Shown here: positions 1,927-33,717 of the stretch, in pieces | Numbering within the stretch: position 1 is the first letter of the stretch | How the letters are laid out: each line of letters starts with the position of its first letter | Assembly (NCBI GenBank): GCA_019636795.1 | Contig: JAHBWW010000004.1 | Location: 186,001-250,000, forward strand | DNA: 64,000 nucleotides | Direction: 5' to 3' | Origin: Phycisphaeraceae bacterium | GTDB taxonomy: Bacteria; Planctomycetota; Phycisphaerae; Phycisphaerales; UBA1924 | Position numbers and translations under genes: made by a program | Notes under the pieces: model-generated | What the model was told of the DNA's origin: nothing | Seen by the model: the letters and a program-made list of their open reading frames with translations, nothing else | The model's database searches: none

Positions 1927-4900
1927 ATGACCGAGCACGACCCCAACCCGATGCAAGCCCCCGAGACCGGCGCAACGTCTGCCGAGAGGCAGCAGGTCCC
2001 CGCCGTAGTCCGGCGGCCGCTCAGATTGTGGAGCAAGCGGGGGGGCTGGCTCATGCAGAGCCATCCGATGCCGAAACTGGCCGCTGTGCTGGTTGCGTTG
2101 CCGATTCTGCTGCTGTTTCCCGGCCTGCCGCTGCTGCTGATGATGCGCGGGCTGGCGTGGGATCTGGCAAACCTGTGGCAGGAGCATCGCACGCTGTGCC
2201 TGATCGGCGTGCCGCTGGCGGTGATCGCGCTGCAGGCGATCGCGGCGGCGTTTATGCTGTCGCGGCGCAGCGGCAACGCGGGCGTGCGACCACTCGGGCC
2301 GCGCTCGCTGGCGGCCCACGGCGCGGTGGGCGCGATCTGGATGCTCGGCAACGTCACCCTCGGCGTGGTGGACAACCGCGTGCACGACTATCTCTCGGGC
2401 GCCCAGCCGACGGTGCGCGAGTTTTACCGCAATCACGACGGAGCCGCGCTCGCGGGCCGCACCGTGCGCATGGTGCTGCTGCGCGAGCGCGAAGCGAGCC
2501 GCGGCGAAGCAGACCGGGCGGCGCTGGCGGCCATGGCGAAGATCATGCCCGAAGCGTGGGTCCAGCTCGTCGACGCGCAGGCGGCCGCTGCCGGCGCGGC
2601 GGACTCAAGCGAGAGCGCGACGACGGCACGCGGCGACACCGCGGGCGCGGATGCGAACGCATCGTCGTCGCTCATCGGCGGCGAGAACAGCGTCGATGAG
2701 CCGCTGCTGTCGGTGTTTCTGTTCGATCGCGGGCAGCCCGCGATGGATCCGGCCCGCTGGGGCGCGGTGCTCGACCGATTGTGCGCCGCGCGCGGCGTCG
2801 AGCCGCTCTCGGGCGCGGTCCGCGAGCGCGCGGCGCAGCGCCTGACCGACACCTTCGGCCTCAGCCTGCGCGAAGCACTCAAGCACGCCTGGAAAACCGG
2901 CGACAAGGCCTGGCCCGCGCTGGTCATCGACATGCAGACGCTGGCTCTGGAGCGCATTCGCAGCGCGATTGACGAGCAGAGCGTCGAATGGCGCACAGAG
3001 TTCGCCGCCCTGCACGGCTCGATGGCGGGTCTGAAGCGCGAACTGGCCACTCTGTCGGAGCAGCAGCGCGACAACCACCGTCAGGTCATCGACCGCCTGA
3101 TGCGACTGGAAGAAAAGATCGACGCGATGGCGCGCACGCTGGACCGGATCGAACAGATCGCGGGAGAAACCCGGCAGGAAGCGGCGGCGGCTCGCCACGA
3201 GGCCGCGGCAACGCGGGCCGAGGTTGCGCTGCTGCGCGAAGATTTCGCCCGCGTGGCCAGCGCTCTGAGCGCGGTCAGCAGCGGCGAGGGCGCGCCCACG
3301 CCGCAGATCACGCCGGACATGGCCGAGCCGATCCGGCGCTTGCTCGCCTTCGGCGATCCGATCGACAAGGCGCTGGCCTTGATCGCTTCTGTCAAGCGGC
3401 CGTACACCGATGCGACATGGACAGAGGCCGATGCGTTTCTGGCCCAGGCAAACCTGTGGCGGGCCAGCGGTGTGGACTGGACAGACGACAGTGCATACCG
3501 GTATCAGATCGTGCAGGGCGAACGGCGTCGCTTCGACGACGACCCGGACGGGGCCGCGCCTTTTTATAAGGCCGCGCTGGTGTTGCGACCGGGCGATCCG
3601 ATGGCGACGATCCGCCTCGCGCTGGTGCTCAAGGACAGCCGGGCGGTGGATCATGGCGATCGCCTGCGTCAGGCGCTCGCGCTGCTCGACGGACTGCTCG
3701 AACGGCCCGATGAGCTGGACGAATCCACGCTCGCGGTCGTGTGCAACAACCGCTCGGGCATTCTCGGCAACCTCGGTCGCCACGTCGAGGCCCTCGAAGC
3801 CATCGACCGCGCCATCGCGATCAGCCTCATGCACTTCGCGCCCGATCATCCGAGCCTCGCGACGATGCACTCGAACCGCGCGAACATCCTCAGCGACCTC
3901 GGTCGCCACGCCGAGGCCCTCGAAGCCATCGACCGCGCCATCGCGATCAGCCTCATGCACTTCGCGCCCGATCACCCGACGCTCGCGACGAGCCACTCGA
4001 ACCGCGCGAACATCCTCGGCAACCTCGGTCGCCACGCCGAGGCCCTCGAAGCCATCGACTACGCCATCGAGATCAACCGCCAGCACTTCCCGTCCGATCA
4101 CCCGGACATCGCGACCCGCCACTCGAACCGCTCACTCATCCTCCGCAACCTCGGCCGCCTTGCCGAGGCTCTCGAAGCCATCGACCGCGCCATCGAGATC
4201 GACCTCTTGCACTTTCCGCCCGATCACCCGACGCTCGCGACGAGCCACTCGAACCGCTCGAACATCCTGGGTGACCTCGGCCGTCACGCCGAGGCTCTCG
4301 AAGCCATCGACCGCGCCATCGAGATCTTCCTGACGCACTTCCCGCCCGACCACCCGACGCTTGCGACCCGCCACTCGAACCGGGCGAACATCCTGGGTGA
4401 CCTCGGCCGTCACGCCGAGGCTCTCGAAGCCATCGACCGCGCCATCGAGATCGACCTCTTGCACTTCCCGCCCGACCACCCGACCCTCGCGACGATGCAC
4501 TCGAACCGCGCGAATATCCTCAAGGTCCTCGGCCGCTACGCCGAGGCCCTCGAAGCCGTCGACAGGGCCATCGAGATCTTCCTGACGCACTTCCCGCCCG
4601 ATCATCCGAGCCTCGCGACGATGCACTCGAACCGTGCAAACATCCTCGGCGACCTCGGTCGCCATGACGAGGCCCTCACGGCCATCGACCGCGCCATCGA
4701 ATTACAACTCCAGCACTTCCCGCCCGATCACCCGAGCCTCGCGACGATGCACTCGAACCGCGCATTCATACTCCATACCTCGAAAAGGATGGACGAGGCG
4801 GTCGAGGCGATGCAGCGGGCGATGGTGATCGTCGATGCCTTCGAGCACACGCGAGGCTTCTCGTTGCGGGGCCGAGAGATCATGGTGTATTGGCTCTCTC

Positions 4901-5070
4901 AGAACGGACAACCGGAGCGGGCGATCGAGGCAATGGCCGAACTGCTGGCGCGGGCTGAGGACTGGCTCGGGCCGGATGATGAGCAAACGATCAGGCACCG
5001 GACCAAACTTGAAGAATTGCGGGCCGAGCAGGCCGCATCGCCTGGCGCGTCGGACCCGGAGCAACCCTGA
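1927..5070 (+). CDS. membrane-anchored tetratricopeptide-repeat protein (1047 aa)
   Basis: Order of parts from the chosen ATG at 1927: a soluble head of about 45 residues; two or three hydrophobic segments at roughly 50-180; an Ala-rich linker; a coiled-coil region near residues 345-440 (QQRDNHRQVIDRLMRLEEKI); then a C-terminal repeat domain from about 608. The repeats are 42 residues (126 bp) of the form NRANILGDLGRHAEALEAID with a HFPPDHPTLAT linker, typical of kinesin-light-chain-like TPRs. Eight units are very similar at DNA level and a ninth is diverged. TPR arrays are protein-binding scaffolds, so a membrane-tethered interaction platform is inferred. An upstream in-frame ATG at 1867 is possible but less likely, since the following residues look non-coding. 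No neighbour suggests a partner. Confidence 0.85.
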   Translation: MTEHDPNPMQAPETGATSAERQQVPAVVRRPLRLWSKRGGWLMQSHPMPKLAAVLVALPILLLFPGLPLLLMMRGLAWDLANLWQEHRTLCLIGVPLAVIALQAIAAAFMLSRRSGNAGVRPLGPRSLAAHGAVGAIWMLGNVTLGVVDNRVHDYLSGAQPTVREFYRNHDGAALAGRTVRMVLLREREASRGEADRAALAAMAKIMPEAWVQLVDAQAAAAGAADSSESATTARGDTAGADANASSSLIGGENSVDEPLLSVFLFDRGQPAMDPARWGAVLDRLCAARGVEPLSGAVRERAAQRLTDTFGLSLREALKHAWKTGDKAWPALVIDMQTLALERIRSAIDEQSVEWRTEFAALHGSMAGLKRELATLSEQQRDNHRQVIDRLMRLEEKIDAMARTLDRIEQIAGETRQEAAAARHEAAATRAEVALLREDFARVASALSAVSSGEGAPTPQITPDMAEPIRRLLAFGDPIDKALALIASVKRPYTDATWTEADAFLAQANLWRASGVDWTDDSAYRYQIVQGERRRFDDDPDGAAPFYKAALVLRPGDPMATIRLALVLKDSRAVDHGDRLRQALALLDGLLERPDELDESTLAVVCNNRSGILGNLGRHVEALEAIDRAIAISLMHFAPDHPSLATMHSNRANILSDLGRHAEALEAIDRAIAISLMHFAPDHPTLATSHSNRANILGNLGRHAEALEAIDYAIEINRQHFPSDHPDIATRHSNRSLILRNLGRLAEALEAIDRAIEIDLLHFPPDHPTLATSHSNRSNILGDLGRHAEALEAIDRAIEIFLTHFPPDHPTLATRHSNRANILGDLGRHAEALEAIDRAIEIDLLHFPPDHPTLATMHSNRANILKVLGRYAEALEAVDRAIEIFLTHFPPDHPSLATMHSNRANILGDLGRHDEALTAIDRAIELQLQHFPPDHPSLATMHSNRAFILHTSKRMDEAVEAMQRAMVIVDAFEHTRGFSLRGREIMVYWLSQNGQPERAIEAMAELLARAEDWLGPDDEQTIRHRTKLEELRAEQAASPGASDPEQP
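3748..4755 (+). repeat. eight tandem 126-bp coding repeats (TPR units)
   Basis: Units start at 3748, 3874, 4000, 4126, 4252, 4378, 4504 and 4630. Long identical stretches such as CTCGAAGCCATCGACCGCGC recur in most units, so the array is far more similar in DNA than protein function requires. This suggests recent duplication or gene conversion. Copy number may vary between strains and may be mis-assembled from short reads. Confidence 0.9.
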
Positions 5071-5186
5071 CCGCTCGCGCCGCGCTGGCGGGCTGCGGGG
5101 CCGCGTGCTTTGGCTGCTTTGCGCTGCGTCGGTGCCGCAGGCCGCTGCGACGGGGCGGCCTCGTCGGCTGCGCGTCGCAGCATCCG

Positions 5187-5709
5187 GTGCATTCGTCTTT
5201 GGACACAGTGCATTCGTCTTTGAACTCGGTGCAACCGGTTTTGAACATGGTCCAACCACGCGCGGGGGCGGGCGCTCTCGGCCCTTGTTCATCTCCTCTT
5301 TCTTCCCCTTCTTCCCGCTCAGCGATGCGGAGTGCGAGCCGGGCACCACGAACAGAACGCTGGCGGCACAATGGAGGCGCACAAACTGGCATAGGCCGAG
5401 AAAAACCGCGTCCGGGCGCGAAGAACGCCGAGCGGACCGTGCGGTGCGCCGATCGTGCGCCTCGCCGCGTCCGAATAGGCGCTCGCCGCGGTCATAATTC
5501 CTCTCGCCGAGTTCATAATTCCTCGCTCCGCGGTCATAATTCCGCGCGTCAACATGAGGTTGACGCGCTCCCCGATGAAGTTGACACGCGTCAAGATGAA
5601 GTTGACGCGCTCCCCGATGGCCGCAAAGCGCGTTCCGATAAAGGTGGTGCGCGTCTCGAAGGCAGTTCCGCGCGTCCCGATAAAGTTGACGCGCCTCCCG
5701 ATCACCCTC
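5187..5709. repeat. gene-free stretch with 21-bp-period degenerate tandem repeats
   Basis: The interval 5071-5816 holds no gene I can support. Three units with a 21-bp period lie at 5187-5249 (GTGCATTCGTCTTT...). A longer array of about twelve units runs 5463-5709, built on words such as GGTCATAATTCC, GTTGACGCG, CTCCCCGATGAAG and CGCGTCAA. Each unit differs from the next but keeps the 21-bp phase, so several reading frames on both strands stay open as heptapeptide repeats. I treat those frames as by-products of the repeat. Spurious overlapping ORFs here should not be annotated. Confidence 0.75.
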
Positions 5710-5816
5710 ACCACAGCACCCGGCGGCTCAGGGCGCATCGTTCGCCTTGCGATTGAACCCGGCGCTGCGGTCATCGGGCGCAGGACCGCAGCGGCGTCGA
5801 TCGCGGCCAGGCGCGT

Positions 5817-8105
5817 TTACGGGCAGCCCGCGCTGAAGGCCGCCAGGTAGGCCGAGACATCGAAGAAGTCGAACAGTCCGTCACCATTGAAGTCGGCGGC
5901 GGGATTCTGCGCGGCATAGGCCGCCAGGAAGGCCTGCACATCGAAGAAATCCAGCGTGCCATCCCCCGTCATGTCCGCCGGGCATGGCAGGCACGACACC
6001 GCGATGTACAAACCCGGCGAACCGATCTCGCCTGTTGCCGACGCGTACGAGCCGAACACGTCTCCGGCGGCCGACAGCACCCACGCATCGATCGCATTGG
6101 CGCCCAGCGACTCGCGGCAGACCTGCCCGCTGATGTTCTGGGTGCGGATGGTGCCTGCAAAAGTCTGGTCGCCGTAGTCCAGCCTGTCGATGAGCGCGCC
6201 TGCGCTGTCATAGAGATGAATCTGGTCGTTGCGACCGAGGTTGTTGCCGCTGACAGCGCCCAGTTGGCCCAGGATGGCGACCTGCGGGTCGATGTTCCAT
6301 GCGGACCTGAAAGACACGGCGTCGGATTCGGTGATGATGACCGACGCGCCGGGCTGCACGATGCCCAGCGGGGACAGATCGAACGCGCCCGCGACGGCAT
6401 GATCGTCATCCATGCTCCAGCCGGAGAGATCGATCGGCAGCGCGGAGCGATTGGTCAGCTCGACAAACTCGCCCGACGTGCCCGAGTACATGAACTCGGT
6501 GATGCGCATGCCCGGCGCAGCGGGCACACCGAACTGCAGCACCGCCGGACCGCGCTCAGCCAGCGCCGGAGCGAAGGTCAGGGACGAAAACGCGTTGCCC
6601 GCAGTCGCCGCGACGTAATACTCGACCCGTTCGCCGCCGTTTGCCGGCACCGGGAGCACCGCTCCGTACACCCCGTCGCCCGCCGCTCCGTCGCCGGAGA
6701 GCCCGTCGTCGGCCATCATGGTGCGCGCAAAGACCCCGCTCTGGCCCACGCGCCAGAACAGTTCGACCTGCGTGACCGGACTGCCCGCCGAGAGCGCCTG
6801 GGCGCTGATCGTCACGACATCGCCGGGAAGCGGGGCGTCATCGGAGGCCGCCACGTCCGACACAATCGGACCCGAGGCCATCAACTCGCTGCTCGTGGCC
6901 AGAAAAGCGGCCCTCTGATTCACGAACTGCTCAAGCCCGACGATCGAGCCGCCCGCAAGCCCGGCGTAGGGCATCGTGACCGTGGACGTGAAGTTGTTCT
7001 GGAACAGCGTGTAGGAGTACAACTTCTTCGGGTCGGCCTGCACGTGCGCATCGATGAGCGTGCGCAGGGTCGTGAACTCGGCTCCGAAGTGCGACCAGTT
7101 GAGCTGCGCGGCCGCGGTGCGGTAATGGGCCATGTAGCGCTGACGCAACTGGGACACGGCCAGCACCCGGCTGAGCACGGGGCGGCTGGTGTTCGTGAAA
7201 TTCCGCGTCACCGACCACGAAGTCTGCGTAAACGTCTCGTTGGCGTCGCGCTGGAGCAGATGCATGCGACCATCGAGCGGGTCGGTGTAGGTCATGAAGT
7301 CGCAACCCTTGTTCACGTACGAGTCGTCGTCGGTCAGCAGGTTCTCGAGCACGACCGACCAGATCGAAGGATCGATCGCAAACACCTGGTCGATGTTTGG
7401 CCAGGTCGCGAGCGGCTCATTGGTCAGGGCGTTGCAGACCGCGATGAGCGAACCGAGCGGATCGGCCAGCCCGCCGTCGTTCTGGATCTCATACCCCGCG
7501 TAATTCGCCGGGTTGGTGCCGTTATAGCGCAGCCCGGGGCCGTTCGGGTTGTTCGCGCAGCGGATCCGCAGCCCGTCGGCGTTGGTAAAAAAGTCGCGGA
7601 GCATCGTTTTGTCCGGCTGCTGCACGTTGACATACACCCCCCAGTTCGCCCCGTTGAGCGTGACGAGCGCATGATTGGCCCGGGGATTGGGAATGTACTG
7701 AGCGACGAAGTTGTTGTAGACCACTTCGCGGCAGAAGGTCGGGTCGCGGAAACCATTGTTCAGGTTGATCGTGTCATACCCGAGCAGGTCCTGATCCGAG
7801 TGCACATGATCCATCTTGATTTTGAGGCTGAACTTCTCACTGCCCGCAGGAAGCCCCGTATACGACGTGTTGCCGCGGATCCGCACGCCCACATCGGGAT
7901 ACACGGTGCCGTCGACTTCCAGATCGGCCAGGATCAGCGTCTCCGAGATGTAGTTGTTGCGCAGCAGCGTCAGCCAGTTCGCATCATGGAAGCTCAGGTT
8001 GAACGACCGCAGGGTCGCGGTGTCGTACAGATCCTGTGCAGCAGCCACCGACGACGACAAAGTGACCGCAACGACCGCGCTGGCGGCAGCAAACCTCAAT
8101 GACAT
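5817..8105 (-). CDS. secreted CotH-family protein with lamin-tail domain and GC-type dockerin tail (762 aa)
   Basis: The start at 8105 follows GGGAGAAG and gives a clean Sec signal peptide (residues 1-23, cut after VAAA). Residues about 30-430 match CotH spore-coat-kinase-like proteins: the RIRGNTSY and FSLKIKMDH motifs, and LLQRDANETF near 284-293 in the position of the catalytic acidic motif. A region near 490-570 with GDGAAGDGVYGA looks like a beta-sandwich. Residues about 575-700 (MRITEFMYSG, GEFVELTNRS, IDLSGWSM) form a lamin-tail domain. The C-terminus (about 707-762) has two D-x-N/T-G-D-G loops, each followed by DFFDV, and ends in GCP: a GC-type dockerin-like tail. It probably acts outside the cytoplasm. 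Substrate unknown. Confidence 0.88.
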   Translation of the reverse strand: MSLRFAAASAVVAVTLSSSVAAAQDLYDTATLRSFNLSFHDANWLTLLRNNYISETLILADLEVDGTVYPDVGVRIRGNTSYTGLPAGSEKFSLKIKMDHVHSDQDLLGYDTINLNNGFRDPTFCREVVYNNFVAQYIPNPRANHALVTLNGANWGVYVNVQQPDKTMLRDFFTNADGLRIRCANNPNGPGLRYNGTNPANYAGYEIQNDGGLADPLGSLIAVCNALTNEPLATWPNIDQVFAIDPSIWSVVLENLLTDDDSYVNKGCDFMTYTDPLDGRMHLLQRDANETFTQTSWSVTRNFTNTSRPVLSRVLAVSQLRQRYMAHYRTAAAQLNWSHFGAEFTTLRTLIDAHVQADPKKLYSYTLFQNNFTSTVTMPYAGLAGGSIVGLEQFVNQRAAFLATSSELMASGPIVSDVAASDDAPLPGDVVTISAQALSAGSPVTQVELFWRVGQSGVFARTMMADDGLSGDGAAGDGVYGAVLPVPANGGERVEYYVAATAGNAFSSLTFAPALAERGPAVLQFGVPAAPGMRITEFMYSGTSGEFVELTNRSALPIDLSGWSMDDDHAVAGAFDLSPLGIVQPGASVIITESDAVSFRSAWNIDPQVAILGQLGAVSGNNLGRNDQIHLYDSAGALIDRLDYGDQTFAGTIRTQNISGQVCRESLGANAIDAWVLSAAGDVFGSYASATGEIGSPGLYIAVSCLPCPADMTGDGTLDFFDVQAFLAAYAAQNPAADFNGDGLFDFFDVSAYLAAFSAGCP

Positions 8106-8544
8106 GATGCTTCTCCCTCGCAAAACTCGACAACACTCGAACCAACACGCTGCCCCGGTCAGCCCGAGGCTCAACGCCGCCGGCCCGGCTTCGATTGCAA
8201 AGAAATCTTCACACTTCGCGTGCGGGCCATCATACCCCCGCGCGGCGCCGGTCGGTCTTTGTTTCGACTCGTGGTCGCACAAGGCCGCCCTGTCCGAAGG
8301 CACGATCGGGGCGATGACGCAAACCTCCAGTCAATCGTGCCTCACCGCGCGGCCAAGAGAAGGAGAAAAGAGGACAAAGAAGAGTTCTGCGCGCTCTGGC
8401 ACCCGTGTCGCGCTACCGGGCATCGAAATGGCCGATTTGTCTTGCATCGCCGCCGCGCCGGGGGTATGCTGGCCGGACGCGAGCAGCGGCGGCCGTGGGG
8501 AATGTCTCCTCGGGTTGTGGTTGCGCAAACCCTGGAGAACGACC
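8106..8544. promoter_or_regulatory. divergent intergenic region between two secreted-protein genes
   Basis: This 439-bp gap separates two divergently transcribed genes and must hold both promoters. A purine-rich run (8354-8388, AGAGAAGGAGAAAAGAGGAC) is visible. I see no clear -35/-10 pair and no supported gene. Confidence 0.4.
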
Positions 8545-9990
8545 ATGCCGATCAATCCCGTGAAGTGTTCCACGCGCGCTGCGGCGTCTGTGTCCGGCGC
8601 GGCCCTGGCGTGCGCCGCGCTGGCGCTGGCGTGCGGCTCGGCCGCGGCGCAGCCGACTGTCCCCAATGGTTTCTCGGCCCGGCTCATCGCGCCCGTGCTC
8701 GATGGAGTGATGCCCGAACTCTCGGCGATCGATCATCCGTCTTTCGGCAGCGGAGTTGTCTCCGCGACAGTCGCAAACAACATCGCAACCTTCCGGCTCA
8801 TCAGCCCCTCGGGCGTGATTTCCAACCTGGGCACCTTTACGACCAGCAACCTGTTCAATGCGCTGAGCATCCACTTCGATCATGACAACATCATCGCGCC
8901 GCTCATCCACGCGACGCTCTATCGCTTCTCTCCAGGGAGGGATACCCTGTACCTGACGATCGCGCCGGGCGGGCAGGTCACGCAGCGCTGGATTCTCGGC
9001 GCGTCGAACAACCAACTCATGTATAACTTCGCCCTGACCGACGGCTCGGCGGGCAACCCGGTCGGGGCGGTGCTGCTCGATCGCAACGCAAGCAACGGCA
9101 CCGTGCTGGCGCGGATGGACACCGACTACCAGGTGACCGTTGTCGCGCAGAACTCGGTGCCCTCAGGCCGCGTGGACACCGATGTCTGGGGCATGCAGCG
9201 CGATGTGACGGGGCTGTACGGCGGCGGAGTCCTGATTGCCGACTCTGACGACAACGATCAGCGCAGCGCGATCTACGAAATGCGCAACGTCATGACCGGG
9301 GGCACCTATCGCCAGATCAGCAATGTCCACTGGAACACGCTGCGTTACGGCGACCTGGCGATCGTGGCCGGCGGCGACTTCGGCGGCGTCATCTACATCA
9401 CCGACACGCTGAGCAACCAGATCCAGCAGGTCGCAACCGACGGCACTCACACGATGTGGGCCAGCGGTTTCACCGGTCTTGACGCGCTGGCGATCAGCCA
9501 CGACGGCATGAGCATGTACGCGGCCGACGCCAGCGGCATCTGGCTCATCCGCGCGACCGGCACGCAGCCCGGGCCGGTCATTCTTGCAACCGATCCGTCG
9601 ATCCCGGCTTCGTCGCACCTGACCGGCGGCCCGGTTTCGAGCGCCCGCATCATCTTCAATGAAGCCGTGTCGTTCACGCAGGCGCACATCTCGATTGTCA
9701 ACAGTGCCAACCAGAACGTTGGCTTCGCCGCCTCCGGCTCGGGCAGCCAGTTCATGCTCCTCTCCTTCGCCCAGCCGCTCAAGGCCGACACATACACGGT
9801 CACGATCAGCGATGCCGTGCTCTCGGTCGCGACCGGCGAGCCGCTCGACGGCAACAACGACGGGACCAGCGGCGGCGACGCGGTCGTGACGTTCAAGCAT
9901 TTCTGCCTGGCCGACACCAACACCGATCGCGTGCTCGATTTCTTCGACGTGCAGACGTTCCTCAACGCCTATTCGAGCCAGTGCCAGTGA
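8545..9990 (+). CDS. secreted protein with GC-type dockerin-like tail (481 aa)
   Basis: The ATG at 8545 follows CTGGAGAAC and gives a signal peptide (Ala-rich core, cut near SAAAQP). The body, with repeated LYLTIAPGG, VLIADSDDND and GVIYITDTLSNQIQQ segments, looks like a beta-propeller or NHL-type fold, followed by a domain around residues 355-445 (ARIIFNEAVSFTQAHI, DTYTVTISDAVLS) resembling the Ig-like domains of cell-surface proteins. The C-terminus, DTNTDRVLDFFDVQTFL ending SSQCQ, is a single-loop version of the dockerin-like tail seen in the divergent neighbour and at 49146. Function unknown; probably extracellular or surface bound. Longer upstream ORF sequence is not used because it overlaps the neighbour's start region. 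Confidence 0.8.
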   Translation: MPINPVKCSTRAAASVSGAALACAALALACGSAAAQPTVPNGFSARLIAPVLDGVMPELSAIDHPSFGSGVVSATVANNIATFRLISPSGVISNLGTFTTSNLFNALSIHFDHDNIIAPLIHATLYRFSPGRDTLYLTIAPGGQVTQRWILGASNNQLMYNFALTDGSAGNPVGAVLLDRNASNGTVLARMDTDYQVTVVAQNSVPSGRVDTDVWGMQRDVTGLYGGGVLIADSDDNDQRSAIYEMRNVMTGGTYRQISNVHWNTLRYGDLAIVAGGDFGGVIYITDTLSNQIQQVATDGTHTMWASGFTGLDALAISHDGMSMYAADASGIWLIRATGTQPGPVILATDPSIPASSHLTGGPVSSARIIFNEAVSFTQAHISIVNSANQNVGFAASGSGSQFMLLSFAQPLKADTYTVTISDAVLSVATGEPLDGNNDGTSGGDAVVTFKHFCLADTNTDRVLDFFDVQTFLNAYSSQCQ

Positions 9991-10080
9991 GTGCAGCGCG
10001 CCGGGCAGGCCTAGGTGGGCATATCCCTCGCCTCGCGCCCCCGCCTTGACACGACGCCGCAACACGCGACGATCCTTCTT

Positions 10081-11526
10081 ATGCACACCACGCTCCTCCC
10101 ATCGCGCAAGCCGTTGTCATTTCGCGTCCCGCTGCCCGCGCTGCCCGCACTGGCCGCACTGGCTGCCGCACTGCTCGCCTCGCCCGCGACGGTGCTCGCC
10201 CAGCCCGAAAACATCGCGCCCCAGCCCGCGCACACCATCGCCCGCCCCGAGCCCATCTTCAATGGCCGCGACCTGAGCGGATGGTGGGGGGCCGAGACGG
10301 AAAACCCCGCAGACTATCTCGCCCTGACGCCCGATGAACTGACACGCAAGAAAGCGCAAAGCCTCGACAACATCCACAAACACTGGCGCGTCGAGGATGG
10401 AGAGCTCATCAACGACGGCCACGGGCTCTATCTCACCACCGATCGCTTCTTCGGCGACTTCCACCTCATGCTCGAATACCGCACCGTCGCCGGCGCCGAC
10501 AGCGGGATCTATCTCCGCGGCTACCCGCAGGTGCAGATCTGGGACACGACCGAGGCCGGGGGCAAGTGGAATCTGGGCGCGGACAAGGGTTCGGGCGGTT
10601 TGTGGAACAACTCGCCCGATGCGCCCGGCAAGGATCCGCTCCGCCTGGCCGATGCGCCGTTCGGGCATTGGAACGCGCTCGAAGTCATCATGATCGGCGA
10701 GCGCGTGACGGTCATGCTCAACGGCCACGTCGTCGTCGATCACGCCCGGCTCGAAAACTACTTCGACCGCAGCAAGCCGCTGATCGCGCGCGGGCCGATT
10801 CAGTTGCAGACCCACGGCGGAGAGATCCGCTTTCGCAACATCGCGGTGCGCGAGATCAGCCCGCACGAAACCAACATGGCCCTGCTGCGCGGCGGACCGA
10901 TGCGGCACGCCGGTTTCGACGGCCCGCGCTTCGAACAGGTTTTCAATGGCCTGACCCTCGCGGGCTGGGCGGGCGACACCGACAGTTATGAAGTCGTCGA
11001 TCGCACGATCCGCTGCCTTCCCGGCAAGGGCGGCACGATCTACACCGAAAAAGAGTGGGACGATTTTGAGGCCAAGTTCGAGTTTCTCCTCCCGCCCGGC
11101 GGCAACAACGGCCTGGCGATCCGCTATCCCGGAGCGGGCGACACCGCCTACGTCGGCATGTGCGAACTCCAGGTTCTCGACGACACGCACCCGAAGTACG
11201 CACGACTCGACCCGCGGCAGTATCACGGCTCGGCCTACGGCATGGTCGCCGCCCATCGCGGGTACCTGCGTCCGGTCGGGCAATGGAACGTCCAGTGGGT
11301 GCGCGTCGTTGGCAGCCGGATCACGGTCGAACTCAACGGCACGCAGATCCTCGATGCCGACCTGGCAGCAGTCACCGATTTCATGGGCGAGGCGGCCCAC
11401 TACGCCGGACGCACGCGCACGAGCGGCCACTTCGGCTTCGCGGGCCACCATGACCCCGTTGCGTTCCGCTCGATCGAGATCCGGCGGATCGAGGCGGGCG
11501 CCGATGCCGCGTCTCAGCCGCGCTGA
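10081..11526 (+). CDS. secreted protein with two DUF1080 (3-keto-disaccharide hydrolase) domains (481 aa)
   Basis: The ATG at 10081 gives a signal peptide ending near TVLAQP. Two copies of the DUF1080 fold follow: the first begins PIFNGRDLSGWWG and contains LMLEYRT and SGIYLRGYPQVQIWD; the second begins QVFNGLTLAGWAG and contains FEFLLPPGGNNGLAIRYPG and CELQVLDD. DUF1080 proteins are abundant in planctomycetes and adopt a concanavalin-like jelly roll; characterised members cleave 3-keto-glycosides. A role in sugar breakdown outside the cytoplasm is inferred. The last 13 bp overlap the convergent recQ gene. A GTG at 10015 would add 22 residues ahead of the signal peptide and is less likely. 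Confidence 0.9.
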   Translation: MHTTLLPSRKPLSFRVPLPALPALAALAAALLASPATVLAQPENIAPQPAHTIARPEPIFNGRDLSGWWGAETENPADYLALTPDELTRKKAQSLDNIHKHWRVEDGELINDGHGLYLTTDRFFGDFHLMLEYRTVAGADSGIYLRGYPQVQIWDTTEAGGKWNLGADKGSGGLWNNSPDAPGKDPLRLADAPFGHWNALEVIMIGERVTVMLNGHVVVDHARLENYFDRSKPLIARGPIQLQTHGGEIRFRNIAVREISPHETNMALLRGGPMRHAGFDGPRFEQVFNGLTLAGWAGDTDSYEVVDRTIRCLPGKGGTIYTEKEWDDFEAKFEFLLPPGGNNGLAIRYPGAGDTAYVGMCELQVLDDTHPKYARLDPRQYHGSAYGMVAAHRGYLRPVGQWNVQWVRVVGSRITVELNGTQILDADLAAVTDFMGEAAHYAGRTRTSGHFGFAGHHDPVAFRSIEIRRIEAGADAASQPR

Positions 11527-26469: not shown

Positions 26470-27995
26470 TCAATCACGCCAGAATCTGATCGAAAAGAGG
26501 ACGAGGAGGGCAAAGATTTCGAGTCGGCCCAGGAGCATGACGCCGCACAGCATGAGTTTTGAAGGCTCGCCGAGCCACGCGTAGGTCTCGGTGGCACCGA
26601 CACGCCCGAGGCCCGGACCGACCGTGCTGAAGCAGGCCACCACAGCGGTGCCGGCCGTGGTGAAGTCGATTGCGGGCTCGAGGAGCAGCAGCACGCCCGT
26701 TCCGACGACCCAGAGCAGGATCACGGCGATGAAGTAACTCATGGCCGCGCGCATGGCGGTGTCGTCGATGATGCTGCCTCCGACGCGCACGGGGCGCACG
26801 ACGTTGGGGCGGAAGGAGCGTTCGATTTCACCGGCAAGAGCGCGCACGACGATCCAGACGCGAATGACCTTGATGCCGCCGGAGGTCGAGCCCGAGCAAC
26901 CGCCGATGAACATGAGCAGGACAAGAAGCGACTTGGCAATCAGAGGCCACTGATTGAAGTCGCTGGTGGCAAAGCCGGTGGTGGTCTGAATGGTCGCGGT
27001 CTGGAAGGCAGCAGCGCGGACGGCTTCGACGGTCGTCGCGCTGGCAGCCTGGCCCGCGGTCGAGGTGATGGATGTATGCACGATGACAGCAGCGATGATC
27101 GCGGTGACGACGGCGATCGACCCAAGATACAACCGCAGTTCGGTATCGGCCAGGACCGCGCGAAAGCGCCTGCGCACCAACTGGCAATACAGCCCGAAGT
27201 TCGCCCCACCGAGGATCATGAAGAGAATGATGATCCATTCGATGCCCGGCGAGCTGAAAGCAGCGGCCGAGGCATCGCGCGTGCTGAATCCGCCGGTCGC
27301 CAGCGTCGAAAAGGCGTGGCAGGTCGCGTCGAACCAGGTCATGCCGGCCAGACGCAGAGCGATGAGCTGAGCAAGCGTCAGGCACGAGTAGATGATCCAG
27401 AGCAGACGCGCAGTCTGGCGCACTTCGGGGCGCACGCCCGAACGTGTTGTGCCGGTCTCGGCGACGAACAGGCGCTTGGTGGCCGCGCCGAGGCTGGGCA
27501 AAATGGCGACGAAGAGCACGATGATGCCCAGCCCACCGATCCACTGTGTCAACGCACGCCACAGCAGGATGCTCCGAGGCATCTCGTCAAGCCCGCTGAT
27601 GATCGTCGCGCCCACCGTGGTCAGCCCGCTGACAGCCTCGAAGTAGCAGTTCACCGCCACCGGAGCAGCGCCCGCGCGGGAATCTCCGAAGGACACCACA
27701 GCGCCCAGAAGTAGTACGGCAGGCTCGCCAGCGCCGCACCGACGATCCACGTCAGTGCAACCAGCAGCATGGCCTCGCGACGCTCGATCTGGGGCGTGGC
27801 ACGCCTGAACGGCACGAACGCAAGCAAGCCCGCGAGCAGCCCGCACGCTCCAGCAACGGCAAAAGCGGCAGGCGTGCGCGATTCAAGATCGTCCGTGAGA
27901 CCAAGCACGAAGGCATACGCCCCGAGCGCTCCCAGCACGCACGAGAGTGCAAGCAGGAGCACACCGATCTGCCTGATGACGAAGCGGTGGTTCAT
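26470..27995 (-). pseudogene. trkH: TrkH-type K+ transporter, split by an apparent frameshift
   Basis: The N-terminal part is read in one frame from the ATG at 27995 (hydrophobic, REAMLLVALTWIVGAALASL, PYYFWALW) and runs out of homology near 27690. The rest continues in the -1 frame from NCYFEAVSGLTTVGATI to the stop at 26470. Joined, they give about 490 residues, the normal TrkH length. The four pore loops are all present: SGLTTVGAT, FSTLATGGFST, TTTGFATSD and FSTVGPGLG. The intact pores argue for a recent mutation or a single-base sequence error rather than long decay. I see no slippery heptamer. It follows the TrkA_C gene by 6 bp. Confidence 0.8.
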
Positions 27996-28001
27996 GGCGG
28001 A

Positions 28002-28292
28002 CTACGCACTTCCCGCAAGCCTGGCCAGATCGGCAGCACGCTTGTGCGGGCCGACGACCAGCAGGGTATCTCCAGCGCGGATGGTTGAGTCGCCGTCGGG
28101 GACGTACGCATCACCCGCACTGCTGATGGACGCGATGATGAAGCCCTCGGGCGTGACGCGGTCGCGCAGCATGCGTCCAGCTGCGGGCGAATCGGGGGCG
28201 ATGCGGACCTGATAGACATCCAGCACGCCACGATTCAGGCTCGTCAGCAGGGCGACAGGCTTGTCGCTGAGCAGTTGATTCAGTTCACGCAT
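28002..28292 (-). CDS. TrkA_C (RCK_C) domain-only protein (96 aa)
   Basis: The whole product is one RCK_C domain: VYQVRIAPDSPAAGRMLRDR, FIIASISSAGDAYVPDGDSTI, GDTLLVVGPHKRAADL. The frame is closed by a TGA upstream, so no NAD-binding RCK_N domain precedes it. It lies 6 bp from trkH on the same strand and probably regulates that transporter by binding a ligand at the RCK_C fold. It could be the remnant of a full trkA, but the length fits a clean single domain. Confidence 0.75.
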   Translation of the reverse strand: MRELNQLLSDKPVALLTSLNRGVLDVYQVRIAPDSPAAGRMLRDRVTPEGFIIASISSAGDAYVPDGDSTIRAGDTLLVVGPHKRAADLARLAGSA

Positions 28293-28620: not shown

Positions 28621-28832
28621 CGCACAGGAGCACGCCGGAGGTTTGCACCGCAGGGGCACACCTCCGGGTGGCGGTCCGAGGGGCAGCAATCGCCAGCGAA
28701 CAGGATCGCCGAACGATGGGTCGCATGCCACGCCGCTTCGGCGCGAGGCGAGGCGGCACCAAAGTCTGCCTTCCCCCGTGCCACCGAAGTCGGCTCTGCG
28801 ACTTCCGTGCCGGTCTCGCACAACGGGCATGA
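28621..28832. other. spacer before the RHS tip module
   Basis: No supported gene. It contains a hairpin at 28782-28809 (CACCGAAGTCG / CGACTTCCGTG, one mismatch), which opens the 303-bp block repeated at 30963. An unrelated 185-residue frame runs across the region and is not convincing. Confidence 0.5.
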
Positions 28833-29083
28833 TTGTCTCTGCGCCGCCTGGACCGCAACGCCGACGGCGACTTTGCCGATGGCGGCGACGGGATCTTTTT
28901 CATGGCGACCGACGTACAGTTCAGCGTGGTTGCTGTGCTCGACGATGCCGGGGTGCTCTATGAACGCGTGGCGTACTCGCCATACGGCCGGGCCGAGCAC
29001 CGCTGGGGCGGCGATGTCAATGGCGACGGCGCGGTCGATTACTACGACGCGCAGGCTGTGATCAACGGGGCGGGCAAGTCGAT
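28781..29083 (+). repeat. 303-bp direct repeat, copy 1 (5' part of RHS-core module)
   Basis: Aligns without gaps to 30963-31265 (constant offset 2182 bp) with only scattered substitutions. It starts at a CACCGAAGTCG hairpin and ends in GGGCAAGTCGAT, after which the copies diverge. It encodes LDRNADGDFAD...YSPYGRAEHRWGGD...VINGAGKS in both copies. Confidence 0.9.
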
Positions 29084-30143
29084 CGGCAACACGGGCTATC
29101 ACCCGGACCTGGATCTTGATCGCGACGGGTCGATCCTGCCGTACGGCGTGTCGGAGGACATCACGCGCCTGCAGGCGTTCGGCACGCGTGCGGCCCTGCC
29201 GACGGGCTGGATCAGCGGACCTCGCGACGAAGACGGGCCGGACAACGAAGTCGGCTACGCGGGGTATCGGTTCAACTGCGAGGAGCAGATCTACTGCGTG
29301 CGCTTCAGGCACTACAGCCCGCGGCTAGGGCGGTGGATCGAGAGAGATCCAATTGGGTATGTCGATGGGATGGGGTTGTATGAGTATGCAATGTCGAACT
29401 CAGTAGGCCTCACCGATCCCCTCGGCTTGTTCAGCGGTGTGACTTCTGCCATCATGTTGGCTCGAGAGTGTTCGGAACTCGCGCGCAGAATCAGAAATTT
29501 GAATTCTGCTCTGATATCTCAGTGCCCCTCGACCTGGAGCTCACTCCTTGCGACTGTGCCAGCTTTGTGGCAAGATGTGTTGCTCACTGCGACGGAGGAG
29601 TTGCTTTCGGAGGTGGCTGAGGTTTACCTTATTGATCCTGCTAGGCTCAAACTTGATTCCTTTGATGCCGAGCTGAAAAAGAAGCTTGAATCTATGCGCA
29701 ATCGTAAGCCAAAGCGCATCGAGATGATGCGATGCCAAACTATGGCGAATCACAATTATACACGTCAGTTCCTTAAGAAAACAACAGGGGAAGTCGCTAG
29801 ACGAAGCGTTTCTGGTGTCGGAGCATGCATGAACCTCAGCGACGTAGAATCAGCATTGAGCGAAGGTCAATACATGGAAGCCGCTACAAGCGCAGGCCTC
29901 GCAGCCATAGACGTCGTCGAACCATGCTTGAAGCCGATCCCAGTGGCTGGGTGGATCTTGCTGGGCGGCGATGTAGCAGCCGCCGTGTGGGTGAGTGCGG
30001 CGGAGATTCAGTTTCAGATGAGTTTGGACCCAAGCCGTAACGGCCTGTGCGACTCTTGGGCTGGTCATCTGCGGGCGAATCTTCAAAGATGGCAGAAGAC
30101 CTGCACGAAAATGACTTCATGCTGTGAGCACAACGATAACTAG
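28833..30143 (+). CDS. truncated RHS-core protein with dockerin-like insert and variable C-terminal domain (about 436 aa)
   Basis: There is no signal peptide, YD-repeat shell or N-terminal domain; a TGA directly precedes the first possible start (TTG at 28833), so this is only the 3' tip of an RHS gene. LDRNADGDFADGGDGIFFMATDVQFSVVAVLD and YSPYGR are late RHS repeats. Next comes a dockerin-like loop pair (GDVNGDGAVDYYDAQAVING; DLDLDRDGSI). The RHS core resumes at YAGYRFNCEEQIYCVRFRHY, SPRLGRWIERDPIGY and ends SVGLTDPLGLF, the usual boundary before the variable toxin. The final 238 residues (from about 29430) are low in GC, Cys-rich (CTKMTSCCEH end), and carry a hydrophobic patch PIPVAGWILLGGDVAAAVWV. 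I recognise no toxin family. Translation and function are inferred. Confidence 0.65.
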   Translation: MSLRRLDRNADGDFADGGDGIFFMATDVQFSVVAVLDDAGVLYERVAYSPYGRAEHRWGGDVNGDGAVDYYDAQAVINGAGKSIGNTGYHPDLDLDRDGSILPYGVSEDITRLQAFGTRAALPTGWISGPRDEDGPDNEVGYAGYRFNCEEQIYCVRFRHYSPRLGRWIERDPIGYVDGMGLYEYAMSNSVGLTDPLGLFSGVTSAIMLARECSELARRIRNLNSALISQCPSTWSSLLATVPALWQDVLLTATEELLSEVAEVYLIDPARLKLDSFDAELKKKLESMRNRKPKRIEMMRCQTMANHNYTRQFLKKTTGEVARRSVSGVGACMNLSDVESALSEGQYMEAATSAGLAAIDVVEPCLKPIPVAGWILLGGDVAAAVWVSAAEIQFQMSLDPSRNGLCDSWAGHLRANLQRWQKTCTKMTSCCEHNDN

Positions 30144-30153
30144 AGGCTATTCC

Positions 30154-30891
30154 ATGATCAATGAGTGCAATGTCGTAGAACGGCTCTTTGAGGCGCAAGG
30201 TCCCACAATAAGGGAAGCAGCGGCCCCGCTTCGTATCGTACATTTCACGGAGATCAACGGGGTTGTTCTCGAGGATCGCCCGGGCAGTTCATTTGAATGG
30301 ACACTCAGGGTTCGTCAGCGCGGAGCGATTGCTGTGACGTTTATCATTGTGGTTGCCATGCTAGGCCTTGTGTACGTGCTTGTTTTATTTTATAATCCCG
30401 GTTATGCTTCATCGCGACAGGTCGGAATCGAAGAGCCGGTTATCGCACTAAGTGCTATTATTACACTGCTTTCATTTCATAGTATTATGTGCCGCCAGCG
30501 CGTAGTCTTTCGGAAAGGAGATGGCTTACATGGAGTTCGGACTTCCCTTGAGAAGAAGCTCCCGCTTCGACGCGCCAAAGAGCGCGATGTAGCTCTCATA
30601 ACTTCACCGGGATCTCGCAACGAAATATTTGGCTTTTCTGGTTCTTCAACTGGCGTTTACCTGCTCGCGACTGACGGAACAAAGTCATATGTGTGCGCCT
30701 TTTTTTCAGCTGGAACGGGAGTTGGGGAGCAGCTTCGCCGCGAGTGGCGTCGCTTTTGTGACTCTGCCCCAATCGAGCTGCGAGAGAGCTTGAGAGATAT
30801 TCCTGAATCGTCCACATGGCTTTCCTTTTATGTGTTCCCACTTCCCCTCATATCTTGGCTTCGCGATTTGTGTCGGCATCGCAAGTGGTAG
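30154..30891 (+). CDS. membrane protein, candidate immunity partner of the RHS C-terminal domain (245 aa)
   Basis: Starts at the ATG at 30154, 10 bp after the RHS gene's stop. Two hydrophobic helices lie near residues 57-87 (IAVTFIIVVAMLGLVYVLVL) and 98-115 (VIALSAIITLLSFHSI); the remaining 125 residues are soluble (FGFSGSSTGVYLLATDGTKS). No family recognised. The case for immunity is positional: it directly follows the variable RHS tip, shares its low-GC composition, and the pair is bracketed by the two RHS repeat copies. A membrane location would suit protection against a toxin acting at the membrane. Confidence 0.55.
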   Translation: MINECNVVERLFEAQGPTIREAAAPLRIVHFTEINGVVLEDRPGSSFEWTLRVRQRGAIAVTFIIVVAMLGLVYVLVLFYNPGYASSRQVGIEEPVIALSAIITLLSFHSIMCRQRVVFRKGDGLHGVRTSLEKKLPLRRAKERDVALITSPGSRNEIFGFSGSSTGVYLLATDGTKSYVCAFFSAGTGVGEQLRREWRRFCDSAPIELRESLRDIPESSTWLSFYVFPLPLISWLRDLCRHRKW

Positions 30892-30962
30892 AGCAACGCG
30901 TATGCCGGAGTTATTGCAGAGGTGGTGGCACCGATGTTCCGCGATCAATCATGCTCGGCGTC

Positions 30963-31265
30963 CCACCGAAGTCGGCTCTTCGACTTCGGTGCCGGTCCCG
31001 CACAACGGGCATGATTGTCTCTGCGCCGCCTGGACCGCAACGCCGACGGCGACTTTGCCGACAGCGGCGACGGGATCTTTTTCATGGCGACCGACGTACA
31101 GTTCAGCGTGGTTGCTGTGCTTGACGATGCCGGGGTGTTGCACGAACGCGTGGCGTACTCGCCATACGGCCGGGCCGAGCACCGCTGGGGCGGCGATATC
31201 AATGGCGACGGCGCGATCGATGACTTCGACGCGCAGGCTGTGATCAACGGGGCGGGCAAGTCGAT
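30963..31265 (+). repeat. 303-bp direct repeat, copy 2 (RHS-core module)
   Basis: Ungapped match to 28781-29083. It starts with a perfect 11-bp hairpin (CACCGAAGTCG / CGACTTCGGTG, 30964-30991). It ends at the same AAGTCGAT. Confidence 0.9.
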
Positions 31266-31320
31266 GGGTGCCGTGCGCTTCAGACGCTACAGCCATGGTC
31301 GTGGCTTTGCTAAGCCATAA
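31015..31320 (+). pseudogene. degenerate second RHS-core fragment
   Basis: Repeats the first 84 residues of the RHS tip gene (NADGDFAD...VINGAGKS). It then jumps to AVRFRRYSHGRGFAKP and stops. The jump removes the second dockerin loop and most of the core, joining to a remnant of VRFRHYSPR. It has no variable C-terminal domain. It looks like the scar left when an RHS tip was displaced or deleted. Probably not functional. Confidence 0.75.
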
Positions 31321-31504
31321 AGAACATCCGCAAAGGGCGTGTCGGAATCCGGGTCAATCAAGACCGGGCGTCTTTGCCCTGGATTTGCCCCTGATCGTGG
31401 CCAAGGAGAGCCATGGCCACTGCACCCGGCATGAAGATCTCCTGATAGGCTGAGGGATCGGATAGAATGGGGGAAGGTCCGCAGGCAGCCTGGAGGTGAT
31501 GGCG
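31321..31504. other. spacer with direct-repeat copy, upstream of zinc-ribbon gene
   Basis: No gene. It contains the first 61-bp direct repeat (31366-31426) and a TAGAAT at 31463-31468 that could be a -10 for the following gene. Confidence 0.4.
31366..31426. repeat. 61-bp direct repeat, left copy
   Basis: Matches 32982-33042 at 56 of 61 positions. It contains a 7-bp inverted repeat GTGGCCA / TGGCCAC around a 10-nt loop, so it can fold as a hairpin. The two copies bracket the zinc-ribbon membrane gene. Confidence 0.85.
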
Positions 31505-32839
31505 ATGGGAATGGTGATCGGGCTGGTGGGGCTGTTGCTGCTGGTCGGAATCGGATTGGTGGTCGTCGGCCTGCGCGGGCGGCGGGTGGATGACCACCCC
31601 GTGTGCCGCGGGTGCGGGTTTGACTTGGCGGGGTTGTATCCGGGTGGGGAGCGCTGCCCGGAGTGCGGAAAGGCGCTCGATGAGGGCGCGGTGCGTATCA
31701 AGCGGCGGGAGCGACGGCGGGCGGTGTTCTTCGGCGGGGCGTTCTTGACGGCAGCGATGCTGTTCGCTTTGATCGGGCTCTGGGCGGCGAGCGGGGTGAA
31801 CTGGAACACCTATAAGCCGACGGGCTGGCTGATTCGGCAGGCACGAAGCGGAACCCCGGCCAGTGTCCATTCTGCGGTCGAAGAGCTGTCGATCCGGTAC
31901 GCGGCTGACCAACTCGGCGATTCAGCGATCGACCGGATCATCGACACCGGACTCGCGTTTCAAGCAGATCGAGCGCGGACGACATGGGAGCCGCTGTGGG
32001 GCAATCTGATCGAAGCGATGGGTGCGGACGGGCATCTGGAGGAGGAACAACTTGCCGTCTATTGGCGTCAGGCCTTTACGGTTACTCCGCGCATGCAACA
32101 GAAAGTTCGCCCCGGCAAGCCGGTAGCCATCATGTGCTCGGTCAGAGCGGACCGCAGCGGAACCGGTACCCCAATCTCCTACTCTCAAGCGATCGAGCAA
32201 ATCTCGATTGAGGGCGGCCGCACTTTCACGCGATCGCCGGGCGTGAGCGCCGGCTATGGCACCTCGCAGGGCATGAGCACCGGCGGTTCATCGAGCACGC
32301 GGAGAAACCTCCCGCTGAACATTGGAAACAACACGGTCACGATCACCTGGTCTTGCACCGTCGGCGAGCCGGGCACGGACCCATCGATTTCCGAGACCTA
32401 CTTGAGCCGTTGGATGGTCGAGAAGACCTTTCAAGTTGAGGTCGTGGCGGAGCCGGAGCCGCTGGTGACCTGGTCCTCTGATCCGGACTTGTCGCTGCAT
32501 TTCACGAAGAACCTGCGGATCAGCCGCATCGTCCCGCAAATCGACGAGTTCAGCCCATCGATCTATGTCAGCGTAAGCGTGGATGCGCCGCCAGTTGCCG
32601 TGGCGATGGATGTGCTTCTACTCGTCGAGGGTGCTGAGAAGCACCTGTTTTATCTCACGACTCCAGCCAGGGCCGGCTCACATGAACAGGGCGACGCGAT
32701 CAGGCTCGAAACCACGCCCGCCGACGCGATTGTCGTTCTGCGTCCGAGCGATGATGCGCTGGGGGTGCTGGAGACTGATGAGGCGTTTGGAGAGGAATTG
32801 ACTTTTCCCATCACGATCACTTGGCCCGATGAGGAATGA
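31505..32839 (+). CDS. zinc-ribbon membrane protein (444 aa)
   Basis: The ATG at 31505 lies 8 nt after GGAGG. A first helix (MVIGLVGLLLLVGIGLVVVG) is followed by a zinc ribbon with CRGCGFDLAG and CPECG, a combination common in planctomycetal membrane proteins. A second helix lies near residues 78-96 (FFGGAFLTAAMLFALIGLW). The remaining 350 residues are soluble, and with two helices would face the opposite side from a cytoplasmic loop; they contain beta-rich segments and a Ser/Gly stretch. No enzyme motif seen. The gene is bracketed by 61-bp direct repeats. Confidence 0.75.
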   Translation: MGMVIGLVGLLLLVGIGLVVVGLRGRRVDDHPVCRGCGFDLAGLYPGGERCPECGKALDEGAVRIKRRERRRAVFFGGAFLTAAMLFALIGLWAASGVNWNTYKPTGWLIRQARSGTPASVHSAVEELSIRYAADQLGDSAIDRIIDTGLAFQADRARTTWEPLWGNLIEAMGADGHLEEEQLAVYWRQAFTVTPRMQQKVRPGKPVAIMCSVRADRSGTGTPISYSQAIEQISIEGGRTFTRSPGVSAGYGTSQGMSTGGSSSTRRNLPLNIGNNTVTITWSCTVGEPGTDPSISETYLSRWMVEKTFQVEVVAEPEPLVTWSSDPDLSLHFTKNLRISRIVPQIDEFSPSIYVSVSVDAPPVAVAMDVLLLVEGAEKHLFYLTTPARAGSHEQGDAIRLETTPADAIVVLRPSDDALGVLETDEAFGEELTFPITITWPDEE

Positions 32840-32981
32840 TGCAGAGATAGGAACTACATGAGACAAAAAGCCCGGTGCCATGGACGATTTCTCATGAAGG
32901 CTGGATGGCATGGCCATGGCTTTGCATGGCCATGACGGACTTCGCTTGCGGCCGCGGCGGGATCCGGGCCCGATCGATGTC

Positions 32982-33042
32982 GGGTGTCCTTGCCCCGGCT
33001 TTGCCACTGATCGTGGCCAAGGAGAGCCATGGCCACTGCACC
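32982..33042. repeat. 61-bp direct repeat, right copy
   Basis: Second copy of the repeat at 31366-31426, same orientation, five substitutions, same 7-bp hairpin. Confidence 0.85.
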
Positions 33043-33170
33043 AGGCCGGGTCGGTCGGCTGGCGGGTGCTGAAACACCAGCAATAGGGGAATCGTCGGCC
33101 TTCTGACCCTCGAAAACGCGAGTGTGACGCTCCGATTGCCCCAAAAAGCGCGCCGAATTGCTCCTGATAC

Positions 33171-33443
33171 GCGCGTTGACACGACAATTCGGCGCGTTGA
33201 CACGACAATTCGTCGCGTCAACCTCGTGTTTCGGCGCGTTGACACGACAATTCGTCGCGTCAACCTCGTGTTTCGGCGCGTTGACACGACAATTCGGCGC
33301 GTCAACATCGTGTATCGTCGCGTTGACACGACAATTCGGCGCGTCAACATCGTTTATCGGCGCGTTGACACGACAATTCGTCGCGTCAACCTCGTGTATC
33401 GTCGCGCCGACACGACAATTCGTCTCGTCAAGATCGTGTATCC
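33171..33443. repeat. 13-unit 21-bp tandem array with two alternating unit types
   Basis: Type alpha is (G/T)CGCGTTGACACGACAATTCG-like; type beta is (G/T)CGCGTCAACMTCGTGTWTCG-like. Starts: alpha 33171, 33192, 33234, 33276, 33318, 33360, 33402 (diverged); beta 33213, 33255, 33297, 33339, 33381, 33423. After a doubled alpha the types strictly alternate. GTTGAC in alpha is the reverse complement of GTCAAC in beta, and ACACGA of TCGTGT, so neighbouring units can pair. Confidence 0.92.
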
Positions 33444-33717
33444 GCGCGGCGCAGGGCTTGATCGTCGGGTGGCATGCCCACACCGTCTTCTGCGGGCATC
33501 ATCGGGCCACATGAAACCAGGGCCCACTCGAATCAGGCCAGCCGGAGCCCGCCGTGGCCTCGGGTCGGCGCGGTTTTCGCCTCTTTTGGCGAATGCGAAG
33601 GCACGAAGAGGCCAGCCCTGAGAATCAATCTCAATAGCGCGTGACTTTCGACACTTGACCGCCAACGATCAGCGGTAGGCACGATCCAGTTTTCGCTTGT
33701 TCGAAGGATGTTCGCGA

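Follow-up and report, generated by a model that had tools for sequence, protein, structure and literature searches.

A probable orphan Rhs tip/immunity module at a decayed trkHA locus of a Phycisphaeraceae bacterium

The window considered here, meaning the whole 64,000-nucleotide stretch that was analysed, lies on contig 4 of a 3.49 Mb genome in 8 contigs, and its features are collected in Table 1. The RHS frame at 28833-30143 comprises 436 codons and consists of a terminal core and a variable tip, with a match to the Rhs_assc_core family TIGR03696 at residues 134-199 that scores 59.5 bits against a cut-off of 32.5. As the initial annotation had described, the core lacks its N-terminal shell and a TGA stands immediately ahead of the first start, which is a TTG codon. 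No RHS repeat is detected by Pfam in this frame, no clear ribosome site was seen by eye ahead of it, and a crude hydropathy screen found no signal-peptide-like stretch within it. At 30959-31320 the hairpin recurs together with the junction and the beginning of the core, 95% identical to copy A; in the underlying direct repeat, positions 28777-29076 match 30959-31258 at 95% over 300 nt with a spacing of 2182, and base-by-base comparison places the gap-free high identity at ~28781 to 29083, in agreement with the 303-bp duplication noted earlier. The second copy is also the degenerate core fragment it had been taken for, since beyond the deletion it retains a 23-bp piece (31272-31294, 91% identical to 29297-29319) and then ends. 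Between the two copies lie only the tip (from ~29427) and one further gene, again as first reported, and the GC content is lower in this cargo (49-54% between 29450 and 30949) than in the core (60-68%).

Table 1. Coordinates of the features at the RHS locus within the window
Feature	Position	Strand	Details
Decayed left flank	26470..28292	-	trkH in two separate frames; of trkA, only the last 96 codons remain
Dispersed palindromic repeat (REP-like)	28747..28810	+	Hairpin CACCGAAGTCG-N6-CGACTTC at 28782-28809
Junction of hairpin and RHS core	28811..28838	+	Among the genome's own loci compared, confined to the two copies of the window
Terminal RHS core fragment, copy A	28833..29426	+	TIGR03696; complete DPxG-x19-DPxG autocleavage motif
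Dockerin/EF-hand-like loop pair in the core	29013..29147	+	Loops DVNGDGAVDYYD and DLDLDRDGSILPYG
Variable tip, probable toxin	29427..30143	+	238 aa, GC-poor; no Pfam family over cut-off
Partner gene, probable immunity gene	30154..30891	+	245 aa, two predicted membrane helices
Second hairpin copy	30963..30991	+	Sequence match
Eroded second RHS core, copy B	31015..31320	+	Tip lost; ~207-bp internal deletion

The partner gene starts 11 bp after the stop codon of the tip, and the position of the two genes suggests that they are probably a toxin and its immunity protein. Neither matches a Pfam family over its cut-off. Among 347 genomes of the class, the search with the tip returned the tip itself and two weak matches (E 0.002 and 0.009), at loci in which no RHS core is found by motif, and the search with the partner returned the partner itself and four weak matches. 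In the genome_contigs collection none of 31 pattern matches was confirmed as a tip homologue, and the viral_contigs and plasmids collections gave none. AlphaFold2 predictions from single sequences have a mean pLDDT of 37 for the tip and 44 for the partner, in which residues 61-80 are helical (block pLDDT 76-84) and the rest is mostly poor. With no family over its cut-off and no predicted fold, the tip is a putative toxin. Hydropathy indicates one hydrophobic stretch in the tip and two in the partner, and the combination of a hydrophobic tip with a predicted membrane protein as its partner makes a membrane-active tip conceivable, as with Tse5, pore formation being a guess. A tip/partner pair at C3 is similar in outline, with a hydrophobic tip and a membrane partner, and BLASTP of the window pair against it gave no match.

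The module sits in a decayed stretch, as trkH to its left is split and trkA is cut short. The trkA gene lies beside trkH in all six relatives fetched, which were taken from seven whose trkH is at least 39% identical, and the three relatives' trkA genes that were measured span 456-476 codons from stop to stop, the window's own trkA aligning with the last domain. The gene on the right flank belongs to a large family, present in 113 of 120 genomes, and offers no usable synteny. Further to the right, an 87-bp direct repeat (31344-31430 and 32960-33046, 82%) surrounds a gene at 31496-32839 that has weak zinc-ribbon matches under the cut-off; pieces of this repeat also occur at loci L062, L059 and L022. 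A 42-bp tandem repeat at 33147-33482 has a close copy at L059 654-790, in a stretch with another hairpin.

The genome contains 14 TIGR03696 cores, 13 of them over the cut-off, and a profile built from these cores adds one frame (L061 9457-11130) to give 15 RHS frames, copy B uncounted. Two are full-length, of 2657 and 2174 aa from stop to stop, and both are on contig 2. The search for a full-length gene sharing the window core led to the 2657-aa frame, which matches it at 90.4% DNA identity over 532 bp (28839 to 29369) and carries an unrelated tip; copy B matches the full-length gene at 89.6% over 249 bp, and the orphan frame behind the 2657-aa gene matches the window core at 89.3% from 28996 to 29388. 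The same core thus occurs with another tip on a full-length frame of the same genome, which agrees with the idea of tip exchange through conserved core sequence. Since the core match ends there and the tips are unrelated beyond it, the border of exchange falls around 29369-29388, directly after the first DPxG. Positions 29083 and 30963, which had been proposed as points of cargo swapping, are rejected in this role: the ~90% identity runs unbroken through 29083, and the break there is the edge of the deletion in copy B. In an all-against-all BLASTP comparison of the 15 tips (E 1e-3), two pairs match, and the window tip is in neither. No other core over the family threshold, and so no main rhs gene upstream of the module, is found within the window, and the nearest other RHS cores on contig 4, at C4:361-367k, are all short. 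Locus L058 has four tandem RHS cores (4728-11428), of which two tips are 93% alike over 120 residues, and the 16 kb fetched contain no full-length frame. Contig 3 starts within an RHS core (L021, position 1); this repeat thus interrupts the assembly, and some RHS modules may be absent from it or lack an assigned place.

When the 4 kb that follow the last module (3.9 kb in one locus) are searched with the RHS DNA of the 15 frames, seven of the eight RHS loci of this genome show a leftover RHS fragment, the locus at C2:170-176k (L022) being the only one without. The shortest leftover measures 48 bp (L058), and some derive from the region just ahead of the core proper. Since the 15 frames have mostly unrelated tips and seven of the eight loci hold such leftovers, the repeat that brackets the window module is the usual trace of displaced tips. 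On the 2657-aa frame, leftovers at L020 (~6600-7410) and L021 (1517-1833) have their ends at 6831 and 6870, and the start of the window core falls near 6838, which puts three breakpoints within 40 bp, at a RYIDDAV stretch; at L020 another RHS subtype follows the leftover fragment. An RHS core is matched in 48 of 61 genomes, the present one included, and over the cut-off in 46; no second genome of the genus is among the 61 and 120 genomes compared. Among 11 loci of relatives (12 stretches, two of them adjoining), which were picked for holding clusters, six have a frame of at least 1500 aa followed by short core-bearing frames on the same strand, including a short frame with a 7-residue tip at L080, and five have short frames only within the stretch fetched.

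The core is split by a loop pair that resembles a dockerin. In the window the pair scores 21.9 bits against the Pfam family Dockerin_1 (PF00404), below the cut-off of 22.9, as does the end of the 2657-aa frame with 22.0 bits, and four of 16 RHS sequences of this genome, copy B included and the two full-length frames scanned at their ends only, pass it with 23.2, 24.9, 28.8 and 32.0 bits. The insert is present in both full-length frames. Its distribution was surveyed in 98 RHS frames from 78 named loci, an insert being defined as a distance of over 45 residues from the YxxYG motif to the core end and loops being counted with a relaxed pattern; the sample is biased in favour of the insert because the query contains it, some genomes contribute more than one frame, and the group labels come from record titles. 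Frames titled Phycisphaerales, Phycisphaeraceae, Phycisphaera or Phycisphaerae include 39 with the insert, 11 with none and 9 not measurable, and 34 of the 39 inserts contain at least one EF-type loop. The other named groups include one frame with the insert (Opitutae), 18 with none, one of them from Sedimentisphaerales, an order usually placed in Phycisphaerae, and three not measurable, while frames titled only Planctomycetota, planctomycete or uncultured divide into 5, 4 and 8. A calcium-loop insert in the core looks like a lineage trait. The initial annotation had linked the loops to the dockerin tails of this genome; the loops themselves are real and common in these cores, while a dockerin-cohesin connection of the RHS proteins is rejected, as the cohesin family PF00963 has no match at E 0.001 in the genome, which is 97% complete. 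The loop pair is more likely to be calcium loops with a structural role. Separate Rhs and dockerin modules occur in scaffoldins, according to the accessible part of one report (PMC6780208), and no description of a core insert of this kind was found in the portions of the literature on RHS proteins with dockerins that were available.

The palindrome at the 5′ edge of both cores is a dispersed intergenic repeat, with 14 genomic sites when up to two mismatches are allowed, compared with none for a reversed control pattern, and with a longer similarity of ~60 bp at C1:727758, C1:234451, C2:168020 and C2:179724. It is thus rejected as an RHS-specific element; judged from first residues, the genes next door to other sites include what we take to be those for RpoN and glutamyl-tRNA synthetase, with those for EF-Ts and PdxJ presumably within ~1.7 kb. 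The earlier proposal of an exchange unit that starts at the hairpin loses ground with this dispersal, although sites near RHS genes are nonetheless over-represented. When the 14 sites are grouped by hand into 10 clusters, four are no more than 5 kb from an RHS core, in a zone that makes up 2.5% of the genome (binomial P 8e-5, or 3 of 9 and P 9e-4 without the window, in a post hoc test). This proximity, together with the start of both window cores at the same hairpin, is what favours a mobile unit bounded by hairpins, in which the palindrome would be a recognition site that moves tip/immunity units. A further point in its favour comes from L057 (4025-6860), where three small frames, possibly an immunity-gene array, stand behind another RHS tip and ahead of an RHS remnant, with hairpin-bearing 300-bp repeats (95% identical) between them. 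Against such a unit, the six other clusters lie elsewhere, some beside the housekeeping-like genes mentioned, a hairpin at the core edge is found in the window alone among the eight RHS loci, the longer hairpin sequence is no more stably folded than shuffled versions of it (z -0.41), and the genome has just two matches to Y1-transposases, one of them over the cut-off and neither near an RHS locus. Upstream of the two window hairpins the flanking sequences are unlike each other, each being similar to other copies in the genome. The mobile unit is accordingly regarded as improbable; if it were true, tips would reach sites without an RHS gene, independently of homologous exchange through the core. 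A dedicated site is a possible role of the palindrome, which may also have served as a recombination edge.

The anatomy of the module, the core shared with a full-length gene, the unrelated tips, the leftover RHS fragments and the decayed flank are very probably those of an orphan Rhs C-terminal tip/immunity module that has ended up at a trkHA locus in decay. Such a module would be the end piece of a larger RHS gene, with the core end, the autocleavage motif and a toxin-like tip, together with the downstream gene for a membrane protein, and copy B 2.2 kb further on would be the remnant of a neighbouring module whose tip has been lost. With neither a clear ribosome site nor a signal peptide, the module is probably silent where it stands. 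It could act as a reservoir for an alternative tip and its immunity gene, from which homologous recombination through the core (~530 bp at 90%) would place the tip on a complete full-length shell. The lack of a full-length gene upstream speaks against this assignment, in that the orphan tips of the cited work lie behind a main gene; such a position is taken here as usual for an orphan module and not as defining. The want of a family match for tip and partner and the one RHS locus without a leftover count against it as well. The assignment concerns the identity of the module, whereas its continued usability is the subject of the main rival, and the two do not exclude each other. According to that rival, which appears rather unlikely, the same orphan fragment was brought in by chance recombination between dispersed repeats and is now a decaying, dead relic, as the truncated trkA in the decayed flank, the erosion of copy B, the missing upstream gene and the start codon directly after a stop would suggest. 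The tip-bearing and partner frames are nevertheless open over 436 and 245 codons, with an intact autocleavage motif, so that it is copy B that displays decay by contrast. That the frame encodes a short secreted RHS protein which stands on its own and is currently used is highly improbable. Arrays at L022 (5107-11332) and L074 (6973-16777), in which all short RHS frames (3/3 and 4/4) have a signal-peptide-like start ahead of the core, may represent expressed mini-RHS proteins rather than silent orphans and lend this possibility its support, while the window frame has no such start and is preceded by a stop and a hairpin, and 80 of 87 short frames screened are likewise without one (by crude hydropathy, with frames excluded if longer than 900 aa or in contact with the end of a locus, and some loci overlapping).

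The orphan module has close parallels in enterobacteria. The accessible part of Jackson 2009 (PMC2935791) describes rhs loci at which detached GC-poor tips carry stretches of core that vary in length, and explains these tips by recombination with circular intermediates. The module resembles these orphan tips, as far as the available parts of two reports present them (PMC2935791, PMC3150448), in the repeated arrangement of a core fragment, a non-homologous GC-poor tip and a downstream gene, in the leftover core fragments, and in a core held in common with a full-length gene. It differs from them in a locus without a full-length gene, in its host among the Phycisphaerales (Planctomycetota), in the dockerin-like insert of the core and in the palindromic repeat at the 5′ edge. 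From Salmonella LT2, an rhs-CT orphan lacking initiation and export signals is described in the portion consulted of Koskiniemi 2014 (PMC3967940), with evidence of recombination with the main gene over 522 bp at 95% identity. The shared core of roughly 500 bp is similar here, at ~90% over 532 bp; the main gene, which in LT2 lies upstream and with which recombination is shown, is in this case on another contig and known from sequence alone. A further likeness is to Tse5, for which a DPXG-x19-DPXG spacing is given in the accessible text (PMC10684867), the window having the same motif ahead of its tip; unlike Tse5, the window tip matches no Pfam family over the cut-off, and the likeness is one of motif. 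Spare tips are well known in other bacteria, and the present module is an unexceptional example apart from a few unusual details. It supplies a tip/partner pair without known relatives, and it shows the displaced-tip pattern known from enterobacterial rhs loci in the Phycisphaerales as well, where RHS cores are widespread and often short.
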